DNA from: Deltaproteobacteria bacterium
GTDB lineage: Bacteria > Desulfobacterota > Binatia > UBA9968
Length of the DNA: 35,115 nt
Assembly: GCA_016180805.1 (NCBI GenBank)
Contig: JACPAM010000119.1
Location: forward strand, 1-35,115
Reading direction: 5' to 3'
Every line of letters begins with the position of its first letter. Position 1 is the stretch's first letter. The notes under the pieces were generated by a model. That model had not been told where the DNA came from and did no database searches. It was given only the letters and a program-made list of their open reading frames with translations. The translations under genes were made by a program, and so were the position numbers. Positions 5,385 to 35,086 of this stretch are shown here, in pieces.

Positions 5385-5464
5385 CTCGACCTTTCACGCC
5401 CTCCACCTGAACAGGCCAAGGAAATCTCCGAGCGGAACATGGACGGAGCACCTGAGTAATATAA

Positions 5465-5564
5465 GGGGAGCGCGAGCGAGGCTGCGGACGTCCGATTACA
5501 AACAGTGCGACTCATGCCACGAACCTATCGGCCGCAGCCGAAAGCGCGGTCCCCGAGGGAGCTT
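5465..5564 (+). repeat. Nested-palindrome repeat, copy A (100-nt core)
   Basis: The core starts GGGGAGCGCGAGCGAGGC and ends CCCCGAGGGAGCTT. The stem arms GGCTGCGG and CCGCAGCC, extended by GGGGAGCGCG against CGCGGTCCCC, enclose a loop containing CCGATTACAAAC, CGACTCATG and CACGAACC. It lies between secF and recJ, both transcribed leftwards. To its right (5601-5627) is a module, GTGGAGCGAGG followed by CCCGAGGCC, that recurs beside copy D. No gene is seen elsewhere in the 246-bp gap. Confidence 0.85.
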
Positions 5565-5630
5565 GCCAAGCAAGTCCCCGAAGAGTCGATGCGAGAGGCT
5601 GTGGAGCGAGGAGAGTCCCGAGGCCTGTAA

Positions 5631-8500: not shown

Positions 8501-8530
8501 GATTTCCTCCTAAACCTAATGAGTGTGCAT

Positions 8531-8568
8531 TGCAAAATGAAAATTGCAAATTGTAAAAGTCAAAATAT
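8531..8568. repeat. AT-rich palindromic repeat, copy 1 (partial)
   Basis: TGCAAAATGAAAATTGCAAA continuing into TTGTAAAAGTCAAAATATGG is made of the same ATGCAAA/ATTGCAAA units found at 22705-22765 and 27110-27200. The tgt stop codon (8560-8562) lies inside it. Confidence 0.65.
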
Positions 8569-9678
8569 GGCTTGCGAATTCTGCCGTTTAAACTCCGCCG
8601 CCCAATCCCGAAAGTTGCCCTCCCGGATCGCCAGCCGGCAGTCGTCCATGAGGCGATGATAATAATAGAGGTTGTGAACGGTGTGAAGATGGGCGGCGAG
8701 AATCTCCCCGGCATGATAGAGGTGGCGCAAATAGGCGCGAGAAAAATGACGGCAGCAGTAACAAGCACAGGCTTCGTCCACGGGCCGCGGGTCTCTGACG
8801 AATTCCGCGCGCTTGATATTGACCTTTCCTTTGGAAGTGAAGAGCGTCCCGTTCCGGGCATTTCGGGTGGGCAGGACACAATCAAACAGGTCATAGCCAT
8901 AGCCGGCCGCGGAAATCAAATCCTGCGGCCGGCCCACGCCCATCAGATAGCGCGGGCGTTTCTCGGGCAAAAGTTGGGCCGTGAACTCCCCGATCCCATG
9001 CAAGGTTGCCTCTCCTTCCCCCACGCCCAGGCCACCGACAGCAAAACCATCGAAGGGTAAGGACGCCAGCCGCCGTGCGCACGCCTCGCGCAGCTCTCGA
9101 TGCATCCCACCCTGAACGATCGCGAAAAGCGCCTGATCGTCCCGCCGGCCGGCCGTGAGAGAGCGCTCGGCCCATCGCGCCGTCCGTTCGGTGGACGCCA
9201 TGGCATATTCCTTGGTCGCAGGATAAGGAATACACTCGTCCAAAACCATGGCGACGTCGCTGCCAAGATCGTGCTGAATCTGGACCACCCGCTCCGGCGT
9301 CAGCAGATGGCTCGAGCCGTCCAGATGGGACTGAAAGTGAACGCCCTCCTCGGTGATCTTTCTTAGCGCTCCCAAGCTGAACACCTGAAACCCGCCGCTA
9401 TCGGTCAGAATGGTCCGGTTCCAACCGATAAAGCGATGCAGGCCCCCCAGCTCTCGAACCACCTCTGCCCCCGGACGAAGATAGAGATGGTACGTATTGG
9501 CCAAGAGGATCTGGCACTCCATCTCCTCGAGATCGCGCGGCGATAAAGCCTTCACACCGCCCTGTGTCCCGACGGGCATGAAGGCCGGCGTCTCCACCAC
9601 GCCGTGGCCCGACTCCAGTCGACCCAAACGCGCGCCGCTGCTCGCGTCTTTCTTGATGACCGTGAAATTGAAAGCCAT
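8560..9678 (-). CDS. tgt: tRNA-guanine transglycosylase
   Basis: 372 residues from the ATG at 9678 (E. coli Tgt has 375); the frame continues ten codons to a TTG at 9708, which would be less typical. TIM-barrel landmarks are present: TPAFMPVGTQGGVKALSP, the substrate-binding Asp in ILTDSGGFQVFSL (D93), GGMHRELR, and GFAVGGLGVGE. Near the C-terminus, CACYCC...YLRHL with a later HNLYYY segment supplies the zinc ligands. The enzyme exchanges guanine-34 for preQ1 in tRNAs with GUN anticodons; QueA, encoded just upstream, performs the next step. The last codons and stop run into the AT-rich repeat, so the C-terminal tail (RQNSQAIF) is partly repeat-derived. Confidence 0.97.
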   Translation of the reverse strand: MAFNFTVIKKDASSGARLGRLESGHGVVETPAFMPVGTQGGVKALSPRDLEEMECQILLANTYHLYLRPGAEVVRELGGLHRFIGWNRTILTDSGGFQVFSLGALRKITEEGVHFQSHLDGSSHLLTPERVVQIQHDLGSDVAMVLDECIPYPATKEYAMASTERTARWAERSLTAGRRDDQALFAIVQGGMHRELREACARRLASLPFDGFAVGGLGVGEGEATLHGIGEFTAQLLPEKRPRYLMGVGRPQDLISAAGYGYDLFDCVLPTRNARNGTLFTSKGKVNIKRAEFVRDPRPVDEACACYCCRHFSRAYLRHLYHAGEILAAHLHTVHNLYYYHRLMDDCRLAIREGNFRDWAAEFKRQNSQAIF

Positions 9679-13808: not shown

Positions 13809-14009
13809 GGCGGGCTCCTCGGGAAACGAGCCCTCCGGCCGCAGACGTCCCTTCCGCGACTGAGGGGAGCACGAGCGAGGCTGCGGACGTCCGATTACAG
13901 ACGGCACGACTCATGGCACGAACCCATCGGCCGCAGCCGAGAGCGCGCTCCGCGAGGGAGCTTTGTCCGTCGGCAGCGGCCAGACGTGTCGTTTCCCGAG
14001 GAGCCTGCC
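13809..14009 (+). repeat. Nested-palindrome repeat, copy B, with 17-bp perfect terminal inverted repeats
   Basis: The ~200-bp element fills most of the 332-bp gap between the glycosylase and the DUF4416 gene. GGCTCCTCGGGAAACGA (13813-13829) is the exact reverse complement of 13989-14005, and a further GGC/GCC pairs outside it. Inside are a CCGGCCGCAGACGTCCC segment and the 100-nt core (13864-13963), with stems GGCTGCGG/CCGCAGCC and the conserved loop CGATTACAGAC, CGACTCATGG. No coding gene is supported in this gap. Confidence 0.85.
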
Positions 14010-14589: not shown

Positions 14590-14712
14590 ATAGTAAATAG
14601 TCTCCGCCAGAGGCGGATCAGCCTCAGGCTGAAATGGTCAATAGTTATTCGTTATTCGTCAAAGGTCAATGGTCAACGGGTCGGGAGTGGGGACGATTGA
14701 CCGTGTACTGTT
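14590..14712. repeat. Intergenic repeat cluster with two small palindromes
   Basis: CCGCC-AGA-GGCGG (14604-14616) is followed by TCAGCCT-C-AGGCTGA (14618-14632). Then come GTTATTCGTTATTCG (tandem 7-mers) and GGTCAATGGTCAACGG, which is partly mirrored by CCGTGTACTGTTGACTATTG at 14701-14720. The TATTCG and AATAGTAAATAG words recur at 21433-21487. The cluster fills the gap between coaBC and the DUF4416 gene; no gene is seen. Confidence 0.6.
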
Positions 14713-18284: not shown

Positions 18285-21200
18285 TTATGAGAAGAAGTAG
18301 CCTCGCAGGTGGGCCAGGCGGGCCCTGATCCCGCTGCGCAGGGGCTTAAGTCCCAACCGGTTCCAAACTTTCACCTGTGCCAGATCGTCGAGCAACGAGT
18401 AGGATACTGGAGTGATCAAGAGCGTGATGAGCAGAGAGAGGGCCTGGCCTCCGACGATGACCTTGGCCATCGAGGCGCGCGAGGCTGCCCCGGGTCCCTC
18501 GCCCAGGGCGATCGGGATCATAGCGAAAATCAGCATGAGCGTGGTCATGAGGATCGGCCTGAGCCGCGCATGATTGGCCTCGCGGATCGCCTGGTCTCGC
18601 TCCACCCCCCGGGCGCGCAATGTGTTGGTGTAGTCGATCTGCAAGATGCCGTTCTTTTTCACGATGCCGAACAACATGAACAGGCCGAACATCGCGTAGA
18701 TGTCCAGAGGCTGCCCGAGCATCAGCAGGGAAAACAGGGCGAAGGGCAAAGTCAATGGCAGGGCGAGCATGATGGTGATCGGATGGACGAAGCTTTCAAA
18801 TTGCGCGGCGAGAACCATGTACATGAAGATGAAACTCAACGCGAAGGCGATGGCGAAGTTCCGCATGGTCTCGGCCAATACTTTGGCCCGTCCGGTGAAA
18901 TCCGCGGTGTAGGTCGGTGGCAGGTTGAGCTCCGTCACCATGGCCTGAACTCGCTCCACCGCCTCTCCCAGCGGCACGGAAGGCAAAAGGTTAGCCACGA
19001 TCGTCACCTTGCGCTGGCGATTGTAGTGATCGATTTGGGATGGACCCAGCTCTTCCCGCAGCTCGACCAGATTGGCCATCCTCACCAGTTGCCCGCCTTT
19101 CGACGCGGCGGTGAGGTCCATGACCGCCTGCGGATCGTCCCTCTTGTCCTTGATGGCTCTCAGCCAGACATCGAATTGCTCGTCTTCTTCCTTGTACTTC
19201 GAAATCGGTTCCCCTCCGACGTAGGTTTGCAAGGCAGCGGCGACATCCTCGACCTGAATGCCGAACTCGGAGGCCTTTTGACGATCGATGTGGGTGCGCA
19301 GCTCGGGCGTGCGCACGGACAGCGTCGTGTCGATGTCCACAAAGCCCGGAATTTGTCGCATCCGCGCGATGAGCTGATCCGTATACTTCTGGAGCTCCGC
19401 CAAACTGGGTCCGCGCAAGTTAAACTCCAGGTCGGAAAAAAGCGAGCCGCAGCCCGACAACGACGCCACCCCTTGAACACCCGCGCGCAGATCCGGATAG
19501 TCGTCGAAGATCTTTCGCGCCTCTCCCATCACCTCAAACTGGCTGTAGTCTCTGCGGGAAAGGTCCACCAGCCGGGCATAGATCGAGCCGGTGGTGACGT
19601 CTCCCTCGCCGGGTTTTACCCTGCCCGTCGTATCCCCGATCGTCGTCAGGATGTTGGTTACCCCGCGCAGTTTTCGCACCTTCCCTTCCAATTCTCTGAA
19701 CAGCCGATCGGTCTCCTCCAGGCTATAACCTCCCGGAGTCTGCACGATAATCTCAAACTCGCTCTGGTCATCGTTGGGGATGAAGGTCTTCCCCACCCCA
19801 AAAAAGAGCGGGACGATCGAGAGGACGGTCACGATGCCGGCGAGCACCACCGCCCATCGATGGCGGAGCGACCACGCCAGTATCCAGCCATAGGATTTCT
19901 CCATCCACGAGTAAAAACGGCTCTCCTTCGAGGATTTGGCGCCGGAGCGGATCTTGAGGAAGCGTGAGCTCAGCATCGGGGTAAGGGTAAAGGAGATGAG
20001 GAGGGATACGGCCACGGCGAAGGCCACGGTGATGCCGAAGCTCTTGAAAAAGCGCCCCACCCGACCCGCCATGAAGGCGAGGGGAACGAAGATCACCAAG
20101 AGCGACAGGGTCGTCGCCATGACAGCCAGCGCAATCTCTCGGGTGGCCTTGGAGGCCGCGTCCCTGGGAGACTCGCCCTTTTCCTCGACATGGCGAAAGA
20201 TGTTCTCCAACACGACCACGGCGTCATCGATAACGATCCCCACCGCGAGAACCAGGCCCAGCATGGTGATGTTGTTCAAGGTAAAGCCCATATAGCGCAT
20301 GAGCGTAAACGTCGAGATGATGGAGGCTGGAATGGCAACGGAGGCAATCAGCGTGCTGCGCCAATTGCGCATAAACAAGAGGACTGTCAGGACGACCAGC
20401 CCGGCCCCCAGGAGAAGGTGAGATTTAACCTCTTCGATGGATCGCTTGATGAATCGTGATTGATCGACGATCACCTCGGTGCGGATATCGGCGGGAAGGA
20501 CAGCCTGGAGCTGGCCGAGCCTGCCCCTGACCCGGTCCACCACCTCCACGGTATTGGTGCCCGATTGCTTTCTCACGATGAGCTGCACCGCGTTCTCGCC
20601 ATCCAGCCGGGAGAGGCTGCGGGGTTCCACTACGCCGTTCTCCACATAGCCGATATCCCGGATCGTGATCGGACGGCCTTGGAAGTTGCCGACGATGAGC
20701 CCGCTAAAGTCCTCCACCCGCTGGATCCTGCCCATCGTTCGGAGCACCAGCTCGCGCCGATCCTCGCTCACCCGGCCCCCGGGTATCTCCACGTTTTGGG
20801 CCTGGATGGCGCGCTTGACCAGGCTTATCGGGATGCTATAGGCAGAAAGCTTGTCCGGATCGACGTAAATATTGACGGACCGCTCCCGGTGGCCCACCAT
20901 GATGACCGCTCCGACCCCGCGTAGCGTCTCGATGTCCTCCTTGATTTGCCTGCGGGCGATCTCACTGACCTCACGCAGGTTTCTGCGGCCGGAGACGGCG
21001 ATCTTCATGACCGGGAAAGCGTCGATGTCGAACTTCTGGATCACGGGGGGATCGGTGCCGACCGGAAGCCGGGATAGGATCGTGGAGACTTTATCCCGCA
21101 CGTCCTGCGCCGCCACCTCTCCGTCCTTTTCCAGGACGAACTGAATCGTGATGTTGGAAAGACCCTCTTTGGTCACGGATCTGAGCTCATCGATCCCGTC

Positions 21201-21422
21201 AATGGTGTTGATGATCTCCTCGATGGGTTTGGTGACCGAGGTTTCCATCTCCTCCACACTCGCCCCCTTGAGGGTGGTGGTAACGGTGACCGTGGGAAGG
21301 TCCACGTTAGGGAAGAGATCCACGCCCAGCCCCGCATAGGAAAACAAACCCAGCACGACCAGCGCCAGGATGAGCATGGTCGCAAAAACCGGACGCTTGA
21401 TACTAAGCTCGGCGAGGTTCAT
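18285..21422 (-). CDS. RND multidrug efflux permease, HAE1/AcrB-like
   Basis: 1045 residues, the normal size. The N-terminus LSIKRPVFATMLILALVVLG is diagnostic of hydrophobe/amphiphile RND pumps. Two repeats of six membrane helices alternate with two large periplasmic domains. Helix 4 holds GLVLAVGIVIDDAVVVLENI, with the paired Asp proton relay, and helix 10 holds GIVKKNGILQIDYTN, with the partner Lys. The inner-membrane trimer takes up drugs or lipids and drives export with protons, using the adaptor and TolC-like channel encoded upstream. The gene follows the adaptor by 72 bp containing tandem 7-mers and has no strong ribosome site. It is the last gene of the tetR-tolC-acrA-acrB type operon. 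Confidence 0.96.
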   Translation of the reverse strand: MNLAELSIKRPVFATMLILALVVLGLFSYAGLGVDLFPNVDLPTVTVTTTLKGASVEEMETSVTKPIEEIINTIDGIDELRSVTKEGLSNITIQFVLEKDGEVAAQDVRDKVSTILSRLPVGTDPPVIQKFDIDAFPVMKIAVSGRRNLREVSEIARRQIKEDIETLRGVGAVIMVGHRERSVNIYVDPDKLSAYSIPISLVKRAIQAQNVEIPGGRVSEDRRELVLRTMGRIQRVEDFSGLIVGNFQGRPITIRDIGYVENGVVEPRSLSRLDGENAVQLIVRKQSGTNTVEVVDRVRGRLGQLQAVLPADIRTEVIVDQSRFIKRSIEEVKSHLLLGAGLVVLTVLLFMRNWRSTLIASVAIPASIISTFTLMRYMGFTLNNITMLGLVLAVGIVIDDAVVVLENIFRHVEEKGESPRDAASKATREIALAVMATTLSLLVIFVPLAFMAGRVGRFFKSFGITVAFAVAVSLLISFTLTPMLSSRFLKIRSGAKSSKESRFYSWMEKSYGWILAWSLRHRWAVVLAGIVTVLSIVPLFFGVGKTFIPNDDQSEFEIIVQTPGGYSLEETDRLFRELEGKVRKLRGVTNILTTIGDTTGRVKPGEGDVTTGSIYARLVDLSRRDYSQFEVMGEARKIFDDYPDLRAGVQGVASLSGCGSLFSDLEFNLRGPSLAELQKYTDQLIARMRQIPGFVDIDTTLSVRTPELRTHIDRQKASEFGIQVEDVAAALQTYVGGEPISKYKEEDEQFDVWLRAIKDKRDDPQAVMDLTAASKGGQLVRMANLVELREELGPSQIDHYNRQRKVTIVANLLPSVPLGEAVERVQAMVTELNLPPTYTADFTGRAKVLAETMRNFAIAFALSFIFMYMVLAAQFESFVHPITIMLALPLTLPFALFSLLMLGQPLDIYAMFGLFMLFGIVKKNGILQIDYTNTLRARGVERDQAIREANHARLRPILMTTLMLIFAMIPIALGEGPGAASRASMAKVIVGGQALSLLITLLITPVSYSLLDDLAQVKVWNRLGLKPLRSGIRARLAHLRGYFFS

Positions 21423-21432
21423 AAAAGACCAG

Positions 21433-21487
21433 TCAATAGTAAATGGTTTTCACTATTCGCTATTCGCCATTCGCCATTCGCCATTCA
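21433..21487. repeat. Tandem 7-bp repeats (YYATTCG) between efflux genes
   Basis: CTATTCG, CTATTCG, CCATTCG, CCATTCG and CCATTCA run head to tail at 21453-21487, preceded by TCAATAGTAAATGG. The same words occur at 14590-14660, so this is a dispersed low-GC repeat type. It fills the gap between adaptor and pump genes. Confidence 0.7.
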
Positions 21488-21494
21488 CGATTTT

Positions 21495-22778
21495 CTATTT
21501 GCCATCTTTGAGTGGCAGCGTCGGGCCGCTCACCTGGACAGACGCGCCATCCGTGAGCCGGGTGAGCCCCGAGATCGCCACGAGGTCGCCAGGCTTGAGC
21601 CCCTTGGCAATCTCTACCTCGTTCTTCCCCACCCTGACCCCGGTTTCGACCACCCGCTCCCGTGCGACCTCATCTTGTACGACGAAGACCTTGGCGAGAC
21701 CGGCAAATTGCACCAGCGCCTGCTGCGGCACCGTGAGAGCCCCGGCATCGACGCGCGTCAAGACGGATGCCTTGGCAAAGAAGCCGGGCTTGAGCGTGCG
21801 CTCCGAGTTGTCGATCAACGCCTCAATCAGAAACGAGCGGCTGGTTAGCTCGGCTGCCGGGCTAATGCGCGTGAGCTTACCCTGAAATGCCCGGTCCGGG
21901 AAAGGATCCACCTTGACTTCGACCGGCTGACCCACGCGGATTTCCGGCGCGAACCGCTCGGGAACCAGACCCCGAAGCTTAAGCGGCTGATCCTGGACGA
22001 TGGTAAACAGAGGCGCGCCGACCTTGACGTATTCGCCCGCAGAGACGAATCGGTTGCTGATCGATCCCGAAATAGGGGCACGAATGCTCGCGTCTGCGAG
22101 TTTTTTCTTGGCAATATCCAATTGGGAATCTTTGCTGGAGGCATTGGCTACGAGGGCCTTTGCCTCCTCTACACTGTTTTTGTAGGCCGCCAGGGAGGTC
22201 TTGTAGCGCGTCTCGGCGCTGTCGTGCTCCTGCCCGGAGATAACCTTGTCGGCGTACAAGGCCTGCATCCGCTTGAGTTGAGCCTGGGCATCGTTTAACT
22301 CAGCCTGCGCTTTTAGGACGCCGGCCGTTTTCCCGACATCGAAGTTGGGTGGAGGCACCTTCTCAAGGCCCAGCTTGGCCAGGGTCTCCCCGAGGCTCCC
22401 CTCGATCTGCCCGACCCCGAAACGGAACTCGTCATCCTGGATTCTGGCAAGTATCTCTCCCGGCCTGACTCGATCGCCCAGGTCTGCCGAGACCGAGGCC
22501 AAGCGCCCCTCCACCAGGGCCGCCACGGTCACCTCCTCGTTCGCATAGAGGGTGCCGACCAACTCGACCGTGCGCTGGACTTTCTGCGTCCGGACCGGAG
22601 TCACGGTCACGGGAACCGGGCTTCCCTGGAACTGCCCCTTCTCAGGTTTGGCCGCCGATGATCCGCGCTCGCAGCCGGAGAAAACGAACACCTGTCCAAA
22701 ACTCAAAATGCAAATTGCAAAGTGCAAAATGCAAAGTCTACGTTTTACAATTTTCATTTTGCATTGAATCAGTTTCAT
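21495..22778 (-). CDS. RND efflux periplasmic adaptor (membrane-fusion) lipoprotein, AcrA-like
   Basis: 427 residues from ATG 22778. The signal peptide has basic residues (KIVKRR), a hydrophobic core (LCILHFAICILSF) and a lipobox-like FSGC with Cys36, so the protein is probably an inner-membrane-anchored lipoprotein. Codons ~5-25 lie inside the AT-rich repeat. The mature part has the adaptor architecture: beta-barrel start VTVTPVRTQKVQRTVELVG, lipoyl halves NEEVTVAALVEGRLASVSAD and ADASIRAPISGSISNRF, a helical hairpin (~125-215, KAQAELNDAQAQLKRMQALY), the barrel (LVPERFAPEIRVGQPVEV), and a membrane-proximal end (LTVPQQALVQ to GLKPGDLVAISGL). It links pump and channel. It starts 13 bp after the channel gene; the ribosome site is poor (GAGCCAAGG abutting the ATG). 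Confidence 0.94.
   Translation of the reverse strand: MKLIQCKMKIVKRRLCILHFAICILSFGQVFVFSGCERGSSAAKPEKGQFQGSPVPVTVTPVRTQKVQRTVELVGTLYANEEVTVAALVEGRLASVSADLGDRVRPGEILARIQDDEFRFGVGQIEGSLGETLAKLGLEKVPPPNFDVGKTAGVLKAQAELNDAQAQLKRMQALYADKVISGQEHDSAETRYKTSLAAYKNSVEEAKALVANASSKDSQLDIAKKKLADASIRAPISGSISNRFVSAGEYVKVGAPLFTIVQDQPLKLRGLVPERFAPEIRVGQPVEVKVDPFPDRAFQGKLTRISPAAELTSRSFLIEALIDNSERTLKPGFFAKASVLTRVDAGALTVPQQALVQFAGLAKVFVVQDEVARERVVETGVRVGKNEVEIAKGLKPGDLVAISGLTRLTDGASVQVSGPTLPLKDGK
22705..22765. repeat. AT-rich palindromic repeat, copy 2, inside the adaptor signal-peptide codons
   Basis: The plus strand reads AAAATGCAAATTGCAAAGTG, then CAAAATGCAAAG, a short centre CTACG, and TTTTACAATTTTCATTTTGC. 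The two halves are roughly inverted. The same units occur at 8531-8568 and 27110-27200, where they are non-coding or cover only gene ends. Here the element encodes residues ~5-25 of the adaptor protein. Confidence 0.75.
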
Positions 22779-22790
22779 CCTTGGCTCAAT

Positions 22791-24491
22791 CTAGAACCTC
22801 GCCCACCAGGGATCCGCTTCCTTCCTGGGGCCTTCGATGCGCACATTGTAGTAATCCAGCAAGGTCCCCTGCGCAAGCCTCAGCCGCGAGATCGAGTTAT
22901 TATAGTCCGTAACGGCCCGCACCTCCGCTCCTTGCGCCTCCAAAAACCGCGACTGGAAATCGATGACATCCTTTTGCGTGACCAATCCCACCGCGAAGCG
23001 CTTTTCCTGCCCGCGCAAGTTCTCCTCCGCAAGCTCCCGTGCTTGCCTCGTGCTTTGGATCCGCTTAAAGTTTGTCTCCACGTCGGCCAGGGCCTTTTCC
23101 ACATCCAGCGTCACCTGGGAAACCAAATCCCGAAGCCGGGCTTTGGCTTGGTCCAGCTCGATGCGAGTCCTGGCGAAGTTGCCTCTCGCCTGACCGTTAC
23201 CCAAAGGGAACTGAAGGACGATGCCGACGCTGTAATTGTAGAACTCCCCGCTTCCAAGGCGGTCGACAGCCGTGCCGTAGTTGCCGGGGAACGGATTGGT
23301 CTGGCCGGGCTTGAGGTCTCCGGCCAATCCGGTGAGACCCGCCCCGGCCTTGAGATCCAACCGCGGCAGGAGTTGGTTTTCCGCATAGCGGAGCTGAAGG
23401 GCCTGATTTTGCACGTTGAGATCGGCGGCCAACACCTCGGGGCGCCGAGTGAGAGCCGTCTCCCGGCTCCTTACCGGTTCAATGGGCACAGGAACCACGG
23501 ACGGAGCTTCGGCCGGCTCGATCTTGCGCGGCAGAAAGGTCCTTTCGGGGTTGAGGTTGAGCGTGAGTCTCAGGTCCGAGCGAGCAATCGCCAGGCCGTT
23601 TTCCGCCTCGATCACGCGCTCCTCTCGCCGCGCCTTTTCCGCCCGGGCTTCGAGAACGGCTACCGGCGGCAAAACCCCGGCACGCACCCTGGCCTCGGCT
23701 TCCCTTGACAGGGCATCGGCGAGTTCGACCCCTTTTTGCTGCACTCGCAGATTCTCTTTGGCGAACGTGACCGCCCAGTAGGCCTCGGTAATCCGCTGAA
23801 TCAACTGGGCGAGGCGTGCCTGATAGTCGAACACGCTGCTCCGCTCCCGGTTCTCCGCGATCCGAACGAAGATCGTCGTCAGTCCCAGACCGAAATCGCG
23901 CAGCAGGGGTTGGAGGAGCGTGAATCCCAGCTGAGGACGGTATTGCGGTTTTAACACCTGGTTGGGCAAGCTGCTGACGAAGCGATTGTTAAGAAATGAA
24001 ATCCCCACTTGGGCCCCGGTGCGCAGGAGTTTTTTTAACGAGAGGTTGTAATCGCGGTTTCTGGTGGCCTGAATCGGCTGGAAAAACGTGCTCGCCGTGG
24101 TGCCTTTCGGCTCGATGGTGAAGTTTTTGTCAAACTCCATATTCAAAGTCGGATCGAAAATCGACTTTTCGATCATCGTCTGCTCAGCAGCGCGAAACGG
24201 TTCCAGCCGAGCCACTTCGATTCCCGGATTGTTTTCAAGACCCACCAGCACAGCCTCCCTGAGCGTCAACGTCGCCGTCTGCTCGTCCGCCGTGCGGAGA
24301 AAGTCCAGTGTGTACTTGGTTGTCGGGGGCAATTGGGGAGTCCACTGATCGATGAAGAGCCGCAGGGAATTCGGAGTTTCCCGGTAGCTCCCCGCCAGAT
24401 CCGCGCCTTCGGCGGCAAAGCAGATCGAGGCCGGCCACCCCGGCACCAGTAACAGAGCCATTCCCAGAAACCAAAGGCATGGTCGCTTCAT
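22791..24491 (-). CDS. TolC-family outer-membrane efflux channel
   Basis: 566 residues, longer than E. coli TolC (~490) owing to an extended N-terminus. The signal peptide (KRPCLWFLGMALLLVPGWPASICFA) is cleaved near FAAEG. Two OEP repeats are visible. The first starts at LTLREAVLVGLENNPGIEVARL, runs through FTLLQPLLRDFGLGLT, and has long helices RLAQLIQRITEAYWAVTFAKENL and REAEARVRAGVLPPVAVLEARAE. The second starts around RRPEVLAADLNVQNQALQLRYAENQLLPRLDL and ends DYNNSISRLRLAQGTLLDYYNV. The trimer forms an outer-membrane barrel and a periplasmic tunnel for the RND pump. GAGAGGAGC precedes the ATG. It starts 9 bp after tetR and precedes the adaptor by 12 bp, a tight operon. Confidence 0.94.
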   Translation of the reverse strand: MKRPCLWFLGMALLLVPGWPASICFAAEGADLAGSYRETPNSLRLFIDQWTPQLPPTTKYTLDFLRTADEQTATLTLREAVLVGLENNPGIEVARLEPFRAAEQTMIEKSIFDPTLNMEFDKNFTIEPKGTTASTFFQPIQATRNRDYNLSLKKLLRTGAQVGISFLNNRFVSSLPNQVLKPQYRPQLGFTLLQPLLRDFGLGLTTIFVRIAENRERSSVFDYQARLAQLIQRITEAYWAVTFAKENLRVQQKGVELADALSREAEARVRAGVLPPVAVLEARAEKARREERVIEAENGLAIARSDLRLTLNLNPERTFLPRKIEPAEAPSVVPVPIEPVRSRETALTRRPEVLAADLNVQNQALQLRYAENQLLPRLDLKAGAGLTGLAGDLKPGQTNPFPGNYGTAVDRLGSGEFYNYSVGIVLQFPLGNGQARGNFARTRIELDQAKARLRDLVSQVTLDVEKALADVETNFKRIQSTRQARELAEENLRGQEKRFAVGLVTQKDVIDFQSRFLEAQGAEVRAVTDYNNSISRLRLAQGTLLDYYNVRIEGPRKEADPWWARF

Positions 24492-25248: not shown

Positions 25249-25493
25249 GAAGCCTGAGGGGGACGAGCAGGAAGGCCGCGGACGTCTTTGTCCACGACCG
25301 AGGGGAGCGCGAGCGAGGCTGCGGACAAGCCCTTCGGGATTTCAAATGGCAAATTTCAAATCTCAAATCTGAGATATGAGATCTGCAATCTGAGACCAGA
25401 CGAGGACAGTCCATCGGCCGCAGCCGAGAGCGCGCTTCCCGAGGGAGCTTAGTCCATCGGCCGCGGCCTGATGGCTTGGCCCCCGAAGGCTTC
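25249..25493 (+). repeat. Nested-palindrome repeat, copy C, with replaced loop
   Basis: The outer ends GAAGCCTGAGGGGG (25249-25262) and CCCCCGAAGGCTTC (25480-25493) are imperfect inverted repeats (12 of 14). Inside are the outer stem GAAGGCCGCGG/CCGCGGCC and the inner core arms GAGGGGAGCGCGAGCGAGGC and CCGCAGCCGAGAGCGCGC. The usual loop CCGATTACAAAC...CGACTCATG is absent. In its place is ~75 bp of AT-rich sequence (CAAATTTCAAATCTCAAATC, then GAGATATGAGATCTGC). It lies in the 592-bp gap between tetR and the zinc-ribbon gene, which otherwise holds only the operator and a hairpin. Confidence 0.8.
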
Positions 25494-26140: not shown

Positions 26141-27106
26141 TCAGAGCTGAATCTCGAGCCGGCGAAGGATTTGCTTTAGCTCGGGGGGAAGGGGGCACGA
26201 CAGCGTCATTTCCCGATCCTCCCGGGGATGATGGAAGGTCAAAGAGCAGGCGTGAAGAAACAGCCGCTCGATGCCCGACGGCTCGCCTCTCCCTTCGCCG
26301 TACAGGGGGTCGCCCACGAGGGGATGACCGATGGACGATAAGTGAACACGGATCTGATGGGTCACACCCGTCCCGATCTCAACCCGCAGGAGGCTATAGC
26401 CGCGCGCATAGGCCACCCGCTCAAATCGCGTCCAGGCCCTCCAGGTTCGCGCCCGTCGTCCCCGCTTCCCTGCTTCGGCGAACGGTTTCATCTTTCGACG
26501 ATCCCTGGGATCGCGCATCAGCGCAGCGGCGATTGCGCGCTCGTCCTCGGTCTTTCCCCAAACTAGCGCCCAGTAATATTTGCGCACGGCTCGGCGGCGA
26601 AACTGCGCGCGAAGATAGTCGAACGCGTCCTGATCCTTCGCCGCCACGACGATACCCGACGTGTCCCGGTCGAGGCGGTGAACCAAGCCAACCTCCCACC
26701 GATTCATCCCCACCCCAATCGACGACGGACGGATCGCAGCCAAGAAATTGGCCACCGTGTGGGTTTGCCTTCCCGAAAATCCATGGGTGGCGATTCCCGC
26801 GGGCTTGTCCAAAGCCAAAAGACGCTCGTCCTCATAAAGGATGGGGACCTCAAGATCCGCGGCAGGGATCGGGCCTTCCGCAAGCAGGTGGGGAAATCCT
26901 CTCAGACTCAGGACACTGCCCGGCAATATCCGATCCCCCTTTCGTGCCGGGCGGCCATCGACCCAGATTGCCCCCTCCTCGATCGCCCGGCGCGTTTCGC
27001 GGAGCGAGAGATGAGGCAAGCATCGGCGCACGAAGGCGTCGACGCGATGTCCCTCTGCGTCGGGAGGAACTATCCAGGAGTGAGTCAGGGAAGAATACTC
27101 CTTCAT
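26141..27106 (-). CDS. RluA-family pseudouridine synthase
   Basis: 321 residues from ATG 27106; a TTG at 27118 lies in the AT-rich repeat. An S4-like RNA-binding domain (RVDAFVRRCLPHLSLRETRRAIEEGAIWVDGR, ~21-55) precedes the catalytic domain. The catalytic motif GLVHRLDRDTSGIVVAAK holds the nucleophilic Asp (D146). LYEDERLLALDKPAGIATHG, VRKYYWALVWG, TGVTHQIRVHLSSIGHPLVGDPLYG and LFLHACSLTFHHP are the other RluA-family motifs. The enzyme isomerises uridine to pseudouridine in rRNA or tRNA; RluD and RluC types share this layout and I cannot decide the target. No ribosome site is evident, because the repeat abuts the start. Confidence 0.95.
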   Translation of the reverse strand: MKEYSSLTHSWIVPPDAEGHRVDAFVRRCLPHLSLRETRRAIEEGAIWVDGRPARKGDRILPGSVLSLRGFPHLLAEGPIPAADLEVPILYEDERLLALDKPAGIATHGFSGRQTHTVANFLAAIRPSSIGVGMNRWEVGLVHRLDRDTSGIVVAAKDQDAFDYLRAQFRRRAVRKYYWALVWGKTEDERAIAAALMRDPRDRRKMKPFAEAGKRGRRARTWRAWTRFERVAYARGYSLLRVEIGTGVTHQIRVHLSSIGHPLVGDPLYGEGRGEPSGIERLFLHACSLTFHHPREDREMTLSCPLPPELKQILRRLEIQL

Positions 27107-27109
27107 TTC

Positions 27110-27200
27110 AAAATGCAAATTGCAAATTGAAAAGTGTAAAGTTTATGATCCGAGCCTTCGATTTTGCACTTTACATTTTGCCTTTTTCAATTTTCATTCG
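27110..27200. repeat. AT-rich palindromic repeat, copy 3
   Basis: AAAATGCAAATTGCAAATTG at the left and ATTTTGCACTTTACATTTTG at 27161-27180 are roughly inverted halves of the family seen at 22705-22765, with a longer centre (TTTATGATCCGAGCC). A possible TTG start of the pseudouridine synthase gene (27118) lies inside it. Confidence 0.75.
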
Positions 27201-28419: not shown

Positions 28420-28519
28420 AAGCTCCCTCGGGAAGCGCGCTCTCGGCTGCGGCCGATGGGTTCGTGCCATGAGTCGTGCTGTTTGTAATCGGACGTCCGC
28501 AGCCTCGCTCGCGCTCCCC
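28420..28519 (-). repeat. Nested-palindrome repeat, copy D (inverted, 100-nt core)
   Basis: The reverse complement matches copies A, B and F base for base at almost every position. It starts GGGGAGCGCGAGCGAGGC, has the loop CCGATTACAAAC and CGACTCATGG, and ends CTTCCCGAGGGAGCTT. It lies in the 226-bp gap between manC and trmI. To its left, TAGCCGGAAT (28381-28390, holding the manC stop) and TAGCCGGATT (28403-28412) form a short direct repeat. To its right, GTGGAGCGAGG (28540-28550) repeats a module seen beside copy A. Confidence 0.85.
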
Positions 28520-28609
28520 TCCGTCGCTGCGGGAGGCCCGTGGAGCGAGGCGACCCCGAAGCCCGAGAGGAAAGGCAGGTTTCGAAGGAATCCAGGTTAG
28601 GAGTCTAAA

Positions 28610-31041: not shown

Positions 31042-31838
31042 CTCGCCTGGTCAACTTCTACACGGAGAGAGAGCACTACATTCTAGGGGGAGGCTTCATC
31101 CTGCTCCTCATCATCGCCTGGGAGTCTGTGCCGCATTTAGTAGCGCTGCCGAGGGCGCTGTCGCTCTTTTTCACGACTCCTTCGAAGGTCTGGGAAACGT
31201 TCTACGAGCTTTTGGTCCGGAATGAGGTCCAGGCTCACTTCTACGTCAGCGCCACAGAATTTCTCCTGGGCCTGGGCTTGGCCATCCTGTTCGGCCTCCC
31301 TCTGGGTCTCATCATGGGCCGGTCCAGCGTCATGGATGCCATGTTCGATCCTTACGTAACGGCCCTCAACGCCACACCCAGGATCGTTTTCCTGCCGCTT
31401 CTTATCCTCTGGTTGGGCCTCGGGATTTGGTCGAAAGTGATGATCGTCTTTATTGGGGCCGTCTTCCCGCTCCTCATCAACACCTATGAAGGCGTGAAAA
31501 ACGTTGACCGCGTGCTGGTGAACGTAGTCCGCTCCTTTGGCGCGAACGAGTGGCAGGTGATGAAGATGGTGGTGCTCCCCAATTCACTCCTTTACATTGT
31601 GGTGGGCTTGCGGCTGGCCATCGGCAGGGCCATCCTGGGGGTGGTCGTGGGGGAGTTCTACGGGGCCACCAAAGGCCTAGGCGCAATGATGGCCAGAGCC
31701 GCCAGCGCCTATCAGGTCGACGTTGTCTTTGTCGGGGTGGCGATTTTTATGGCTGTCTCTCTGATCTTCACCCTTACGGTGAAGAAGATCGAATCGAAAC
31801 TCACCCGCTGGCGCCCCGAAGCGGTCAAGAGCTTCTAA
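31038..31838 (+). CDS. ABC importer permease 2, NitT/TauT family
   Basis: 266 residues from ATG 31038, which overlaps the stop of permease 1 as ATGA and has AGGAGG 5 nt upstream; the frame's earlier ATG at 31014 is inside permease 1. It has about six membrane helices and an EAA loop, GANEWQVMKMVVLPNSLLYIVVGLRLAIGRAILG. It is clearly homologous to permease 1 but quite diverged, so the complex is probably a heterodimer rather than the usual homodimer of this family (inference). Confidence 0.94.
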   Translation: MTRLVNFYTEREHYILGGGFILLLIIAWESVPHLVALPRALSLFFTTPSKVWETFYELLVRNEVQAHFYVSATEFLLGLGLAILFGLPLGLIMGRSSVMDAMFDPYVTALNATPRIVFLPLLILWLGLGIWSKVMIVFIGAVFPLLINTYEGVKNVDRVLVNVVRSFGANEWQVMKMVVLPNSLLYIVVGLRLAIGRAILGVVVGEFYGATKGLGAMMARAASAYQVDVVFVGVAIFMAVSLIFTLTVKKIESKLTRWRPEAVKSF

Positions 31839-31847
31839 GAATTCAGT

Positions 31848-31920
31848 AGTCAGTAGCCAGAACCCAGAAGCCTTTCCTCTCCATTCTGGATTCTGTCTCC
31901 TGGATTCTCGTTTTTTTGTG
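31848..31920. repeat. Intergenic palindromic repeat with T-run
   Basis: CAGTAGTCAGTAGCCAGAAC, CATTCTGGATTCTG and CCTGGATTCTCG give CCAGAA/TTCTGG type pairing, and TTTTTTT follows at ~31912-31918. It fills the 86-bp gap between the convergent permease 2 and solute-binding genes, where a bidirectional terminator would be expected. The pairing is imperfect, so the terminator role is tentative. Confidence 0.45.
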
Positions 31921-33779: not shown

Positions 33780-33883
33780 GAGGGGGACGAGCAGGAAGGC
33801 TGCGGACGTCCGATTACAAACGGTGCGACTCATGGCAGAAACCCATCGGCCGCGGCCTGATGGCTCGGCCCTCGAGGAGCTTT
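33780..33883 (+). repeat. Nested-palindrome repeat, copy E (single-stem form)
   Basis: The left arm is GAGGGGGACGAGCAGGAAGG, identical in type to the outer left arm of copy C, but it runs straight into the conserved loop (CCGATTACAAAC, CGACTCATGG, AAACCCATCGG). It then passes to the outer right arm CCGCGGCCTGATGGCTCGG. The inner arms GAGCGCGAGCGAGG and GAGAGCGCGC are missing. Confidence 0.8.
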
Positions 33884-34897: not shown

Positions 34898-35086
34898 GGG
34901 AGACGAGGAGGAAGGCCGCGGATGTCCTTTTCCGCGACCGAGGGGAGCGCGAGCGAGGCTGCGGACGTCCGATCACAAACAGCACGACTCATGGCGCGAA
35001 CCCATCGGGCGCAGCCGAGAGCGCGCTTCCCGAGGGAGCTTAGTCCATCGGCCGCGGCCTGATGGCTCGGCCCCCGAGGAGCTTTC
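34898..35086 (+). repeat. Nested-palindrome repeat, copy F (full two-stem form)
   Basis: The outer left arm (GACGAGGAGGAAGGCCGCGG, 34902-34921) is followed by the 100-nt core (34942-35041) with inner stems and conserved loop (GATCACAAAC, CGACTCATGG, CGAACCCATCGG). The outer right arm GGCCGCGGCCTGATGGCTCG and the end CCCCCGAGGAGCTTTC close it. It occupies most of the last 311 bp, in which no gene is supported. Confidence 0.85.

Follow-up and report, generated by a model that had tools for sequence, protein, structure and literature searches.

How does an exported protein acquire its signal peptide? The question is raised by the gene of an RND efflux periplasmic adaptor in the window, which is the whole 35,115-nucleotide contig JACPAM010000119.1 of a Deltaproteobacteria bacterium (genome G000; G001 and G002 are its two congeners). 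The origin of a targeting signal can seldom be observed directly; in this gene the DNA still reveals it, and the sister species keep unrelated signals on the same protein. A first-pass annotation of the window had proposed that a repeat was recruited as an export signal of the adaptor, and this proposal is supported, at the level of sequence, by the orthologues, by the periodicity of the DNA and by recurrence in other genes. It is very probable that a heptad palindrome, a repeat built of 7-nucleotide units, was fused in frame to the lipobox and replaced the ancestral signal peptide of the adaptor.

The adaptor gene and its signal peptide

The gene and the parts of its predicted lipoprotein signal are located as follows.

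21495..22778, minus strand: RND efflux periplasmic adaptor, 427 amino acids (TIGR01730, HlyD_D23)
22776..22778, minus strand: annotated ATG, 12 bases past the stop codon of the outer-membrane-channel gene upstream
22755..22757, minus strand: second in-frame ATG, inside the repeat, giving a 28-residue signal peptide (from the sequence)
22700..22765, minus strand: adaptor copy of the palindrome, encoding codons 5-27 (nhmmer, 41.9 bits)
22743..22766, minus strand: first-read arm, purine-rich on this strand, encoding the basic n-region QCKMKIVK (sequence and translation)
22704..22736, minus strand: second-read arm, pyrimidine-rich heptads, encoding the h-region LCILHFAICIL (sequence)
22671..22682, minus strand: lipobox F-S-G-C, Cys codon 22671-22673; the Cys and the next residues align with the orthologues

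The adaptor scores 238.2 bits against TIGR01730, above the curated cut-off of 94.9, and the N-terminus of its open reading frame (ORF) is MKLIQCKMKIVKRRLCILHFAICILSFGQVFVFSGC. The repeat lies within the coding sequence, as the first-pass annotation had stated, and both nhmmer and a covariance model built from 18 other copies place it over codons 5-27. The site 22698-22768 fits that model from end to end (positions 1-99; 62.7 bits, whole-genome E=1.5e-5), and exact matches to the arm pattern start at 22704, 22711 and 22718 in the second-read arm. Translation of the repeat gives, again as first noted, basic residues followed by a hydrophobic core shortly before the lipobox (MKIVKRR, LCILHFAICIL and FSGC, with a best 12-residue hydropathy of 2.5). 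Because the repeat is a palindrome of 7-nucleotide arrays, the n-region and the core come from separate arms. Residues 28-35 (GQVFVFSG), just ahead of the Cys, are non-repeat.

Adaptor orthologues and origin of the signal

The mature adaptor is 59-84% identical, with the same lipobox Cys, in the 2 congeners and 6 further family members. The signal peptides of these orthologues are unrelated to that of the window, for example MRAQKVFFLTCCLLVAFLYGC in G001 and MMRITKLSLPLSAFLLWIALYGC in G002, and their coding regions are without the repeat; this is the pattern that recruitment had been predicted to leave among close relatives. In the DNA of the window's signal peptide, lag 7 is the peak of periodicity (z=4.9 against dinucleotide shuffles), while the corresponding DNA of G001 and G002 shows no 7-periodicity above dinucleotide shuffles or synonymous recodings. 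In the orthologue at locus L035, 7-nucleotide periodicity is found only in the leader upstream of the ATG. The leaders ahead of the start codon in G001, G007 and G022 contain arrays of other heptads, of the GTCAAT and the GTAGGCA type, and therefore the gap before the gene looks like a recurrent site for such elements.

An ordinary AT-rich hydrophobic signal, repetitive by chance through codon bias or conserved at the protein level, might be thought to suffice, and some low complexity is indeed expected from the T-rich codons of hydrophobic residues. We give this account almost no credence. Synonymously recoded versions of the peptide are less 7-periodic than the actual DNA (z=5.4, p=0.001), close orthologues have no peptide similarity in the signal region, and the site is a full-length match to a family of at least about 75 mostly non-coding copies. 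No orthologue with the same peptide in other codons was present among those compared, which counters the idea that protein-level conservation came first.

The assemblies compared are drafts, and that of the window comprises 339 contigs. Repeats break assemblies; one may ask, therefore, whether the repeat joined unrelated contigs or was collapsed in a co-assembled metagenome. Such an artefact is highly improbable, since the order of channel, adaptor and permease genes is continuous over the site, the adaptor-facing end of the upstream gene is also conserved in G001, G002 and others, and the copies vary in sequence from locus to locus. The neighbouring genes are:

22791..24491, minus strand: outer-membrane efflux channel, upstream gene (OEP, E=1e-46)
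18285..21422, minus strand: RND permease, downstream gene (ACR_tran, E=7e-277)

The dispersed heptad palindrome

The repeat spans about 65-150 bp and is imperfectly palindromic; it consists of a (TGCAAAN)n array, a spacer of variable length and a (TTTGCAN)n array. The pattern TTGCANTTTGCANTTTG, with at most 1 mismatch, has 209 sites in the 4.46-Mb genome and 2 in a backwards control. The covariance model finds at least about 75 full elements in G000, at least 3 in G001 and a few or more in G002; these counts are lower bounds, with 150 candidates scored per genome. The exact arm pattern occurs in 11 of 34 relatives and in 15 of 148 sampled genomes of the phylum. In its many dispersed copies and this patchy distribution, the repeat resembles a miniature inverted-repeat transposable element or small mobile palindromic sequence. 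Where sites were compared (the adaptor and LptM-like loci only), the element is replaced by another heptad element or by an unrelated signal.

Both further copies cited in the first-pass annotation are real, the second being the weaker:

27104..27199, no strand assigned: full non-coding copy (covariance model E=8.9e-10; nhmmer 64.3 bits)
8528..8594, no strand assigned: decayed, weaker copy over the last codons of tgt, whose stop is at 8560 (nhmmer 34.0 bits)

In the fetched loci of G000, 92 arrays have period 7 and at most 5 have any other period except its double, 14. The regions counted had been chosen for the TGCAAAN repeat; other heptad units (GTCAATG, GCAGTGA) are present in them too.

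A function of the repeat as an RNA structure was considered and dropped. The adaptor copy folds at -18.3 kcal/mol, only moderately more stable than its shuffles (z -2.6 for one strand, -1.9 for the other), the tgt copy folds no better than shuffles, and the consensus model retains only 6 base pairs; because of this weak folding and small number of pairs, no RNA role is claimed. No Rfam family reached its gathering threshold within the window.

Several other repeats were observed. Heptad arrays of other sequence types lie at 14621-14701, 25326-25407 and 31838-31898 of the window, and one more lies between the adaptor and permease genes (21421-21518). Genes often end within the palindrome, which then provides their final codons and stop (L102, L111, L118, L143, L157 and others), with C-terminal tails such as GKMQNAN* and KNEDCKM*, so that protein C-termini are altered too. 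In the class-level relative G037 the backwards control gave 10 sites and the real pattern 8, so a different kind of repeat may be present there. A second dispersed repeat, GC-rich and about 100-150 bp long, has 5-6 copies in the window, up to 96% identical and in both orientations:

5453-5605, 13852-14004, 25257-25486, 28420-28527, 33797-33882 and 34930-35082: copies of the GC-rich repeat

Why heptad palindromes resemble signal peptides

A heptad array encodes the same residues in every frame, CKMQNAK-like for the purine-rich arm and FAFCILH-like for its complement, because 7 and 3 are coprime. Since the arms are inverted, the product is basic and then hydrophobic in either orientation. ATG recurs in every frame of the consensus first arm, and an idealised element shows the basic-then-hydrophobic pattern in all six frames. 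The cause is thus a simple property of the code: the purine-rich arm translates into basic residues and its pyrimidine-rich complement into hydrophobic ones, and period 7 makes both independent of frame.

A frame was scored as signal-like if it had an ATG, a run of basic residues and a hydrophobic 12-mer, with no stop codon up to the element's end. Such a frame is present in 23 of 72 real copies, compared with 2.9 +/- 1.6 (maximum 7) in dinucleotide shuffles and 1.1 in random genomic segments. These counts suggest that elements of this class are unusually prone to become Sec or lipoprotein signals.

Recurrence in other exported proteins

Searching for other signals made from the repeat, as had been recommended at first pass, revealed further predicted exported proteins in G000 and its relatives. 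Among the 85 copies in G000, two besides that of the adaptor feed a predicted export signal. One is in a lipoprotein linked to argH, whose ATG overlaps the argH stop and which begins MSLAGLQKSKCKMQNSKSSLNLQFAIFILIFSLASLVGC and continues GKKGDP; its score against LptM (NF047847) is 19.1 bits, below the cut-off of 27.7, and it can be called LptM-like only. The other is in a TctC-like binding protein; its start codon, an ATG within the element, lies nine bases past a good Shine-Dalgarno sequence, AAGGAGG:

L101:771-1337 (G000:C36), minus strand: TctC-like ORF with repeat-derived signal peptide; reading frame broken after about 109 codons

Intact copies, up to 91% identical, occur in relatives, and G000 has 62 matches to the query. 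A fourth candidate, at L112 (MQIAECKLQKSKFCIFQFALCIELAIGAAGC), was rejected, as a much stronger ORF lies on the opposite strand.

The argH-linked lipoprotein was surveyed in the 19 family genomes that have the gene. In 12 of them the signal peptide is long (30-41 residues) and its DNA consists of heptad arrays, of five types: TGCAAAA, AAAAGGC, GTGAGGC, AATAGGC and GAGGATA. The remaining seven have other signals, six of which are short (15-17 residues); L173 (G009), with a periodicity peak at lag 4, was counted among the plain ones. Both periodicity tests, by dinucleotide shuffle and by synonymous recoding, were passed by 10 of the 12 heptad signals. The two GAGGATA signals (G004, G005) passed the dinucleotide test and not the synonymous-recoding test (p about 0.13), and they count as weaker for this reason. 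Signal types differ even between the sister species G000 and G001, and mapping the six types on the mature-protein tree requires nine changes. The heptad types are themselves found dispersed in these genomes, most clearly AGGCANN (12 of 12, with a near-zero backwards control); the strict AAAGGNN pattern occurs in G001 in the lipoprotein copy only.

The signal segment of this lipoprotein also shows a distribution of its own, as seen at the argH-lipoprotein junctions L168, L171 and L172. Between G000 and G007 or G014, which belong to another genus, the segment is 90-97% identical in 40-column blocks and its core 95-97%, and the flanking DNA on both sides is 57-85% identical. Between the congeners G000 and G001 the flanks are 82-92% identical and the signal segment 45-60%. 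The simplest reading is that the signal segment alone moved between genera; strong constraint and an assembly effect are both possible explanations of the similarity.

Chance tolerance might account for such cases: an insertion would fall beside a start, almost any hydrophobic stretch would export, and the repeat itself would have no special tendency. Signal peptides are permissive (Kaiser et al. 1987, cited in PMC4585086), and the majority of the 85 copies lie between genes or at their ends and give rise to no signal. This account on its own is unlikely, however, since signal-like frames are about eight times commoner in the elements than in their own dinucleotide shuffles, and 12 of 19 genomes show uptake of heptad signals by one and the same gene. 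Tolerance and aptitude overlap, and tolerance likely acts as a filter after insertion.

Proposed explanation

Replacement of the ancestral signal by the palindrome may be pictured as follows. A copy of the palindrome would have landed, or grown, in the short gap ahead of the adaptor gene. Its second, pyrimidine-rich arm, in frame into the lipobox or cleavage region, would supply the hydrophobic core, and its first, purine-rich arm the charge and perhaps the start codon as well. The ancestral signal peptide would be replaced, with the native lipobox and mature adaptor kept; the old core would then be free to decay, leaving only GQVFVFSG between the repeat and the Cys. Fusions to cytoplasmic proteins would presumably be mistargeted and lost, so that exported genes remain. 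Relatives have done likewise with other heptad palindromes.

Several points weigh against this replacement. Neither adaptor ATG (22778, 22757) has a well-spaced Shine-Dalgarno sequence. The Cys of lipoproteins classically lies at residue 15-35; that of the adaptor is residue 36 from the ATG at 22778 and residue 29 from that at 22757. The TctC-like case is in a frameshifted ORF, and the species of the window is represented by one genome.

The first of these points would fit a real start downstream of the first arm, with the repeat mostly an untranslated leader. This is very unlikely: the only in-frame downstream candidates are two TTG and one GTG, which leave 18, 11 and 6 residues before the Cys and no basic n-region. 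With such a start the adaptor would lose export, given that all orthologues have a complete lipoprotein signal. The start is probably the ATG at 22778 or that at 22757, and on either choice the second arm would form the hydrophobic core of a signal predicted to direct export and lipidation at the Cys.

For the family as a whole, the evidence somewhat favours a broader view, in which heptad palindromes are a standing and recurrent source of export signals, one lipoprotein had its signal replaced independently by unrelated heptad families on at least five occasions, and one cassette moved between genera apart from its gene. Genomes may, in this way, make new secretion signals from non-coding repeats. 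Turnover of signal peptides becomes countable across genomes and testable with reporters, and annotation pipelines may trim such starts or miscall them as repeat.

Comparison with known systems

Searches of the open-access literature found no account of heptad palindromes serving as signal peptides, of frame-independent coding by them or of one gene taking them up repeatedly. A comparable case is RU-2 (Yersinia palindromic sequence), an enterobacterial small mobile sequence in YPO1552 (Delihas 2007, PMC2759123; review PMC2229807); the homologues from other genera carry signal sequences that bear no relation to this repeat. Unlike the heptad palindrome, RU-2 is one 168-bp repeat with essentially one main case and no lipoprotein, and it is without 7-nucleotide tandem arms, frame-independent coding or repeated uptake by one gene from several families. 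Heptanucleotide repeats are known in cyanobacteria (Calothrix repeats), Xanthomonas and Beggiatoaceae, for example GGGAATC (PMC4692102) and TAACTGA (PMC4679880). In the portions of these accounts used here, they are likewise 7-nucleotide tandem repeats, mostly intergenic and often just 5' of start codons; they are mostly direct arrays rather than inverted pairs, however, and those portions do not describe them as export signals. The palindromic elements of Rickettsia and Wolbachia and the PARCEL elements (PMC2996958) resemble the present case in being palindromes in frame within protein-coding genes. They differ, as that source describes them, in that their insertion points vary, usually falling within unstructured parts of globular proteins, and they do not serve as N-terminal signals. 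Finally, the adaptor shares with the usual Sec/SPII lipoprotein signals of RND adaptors the n-region, h-region, lipobox and Cys; it departs from them in its length, 28 or 35 residues before the Cys, and in n- and h-regions of repeat origin.
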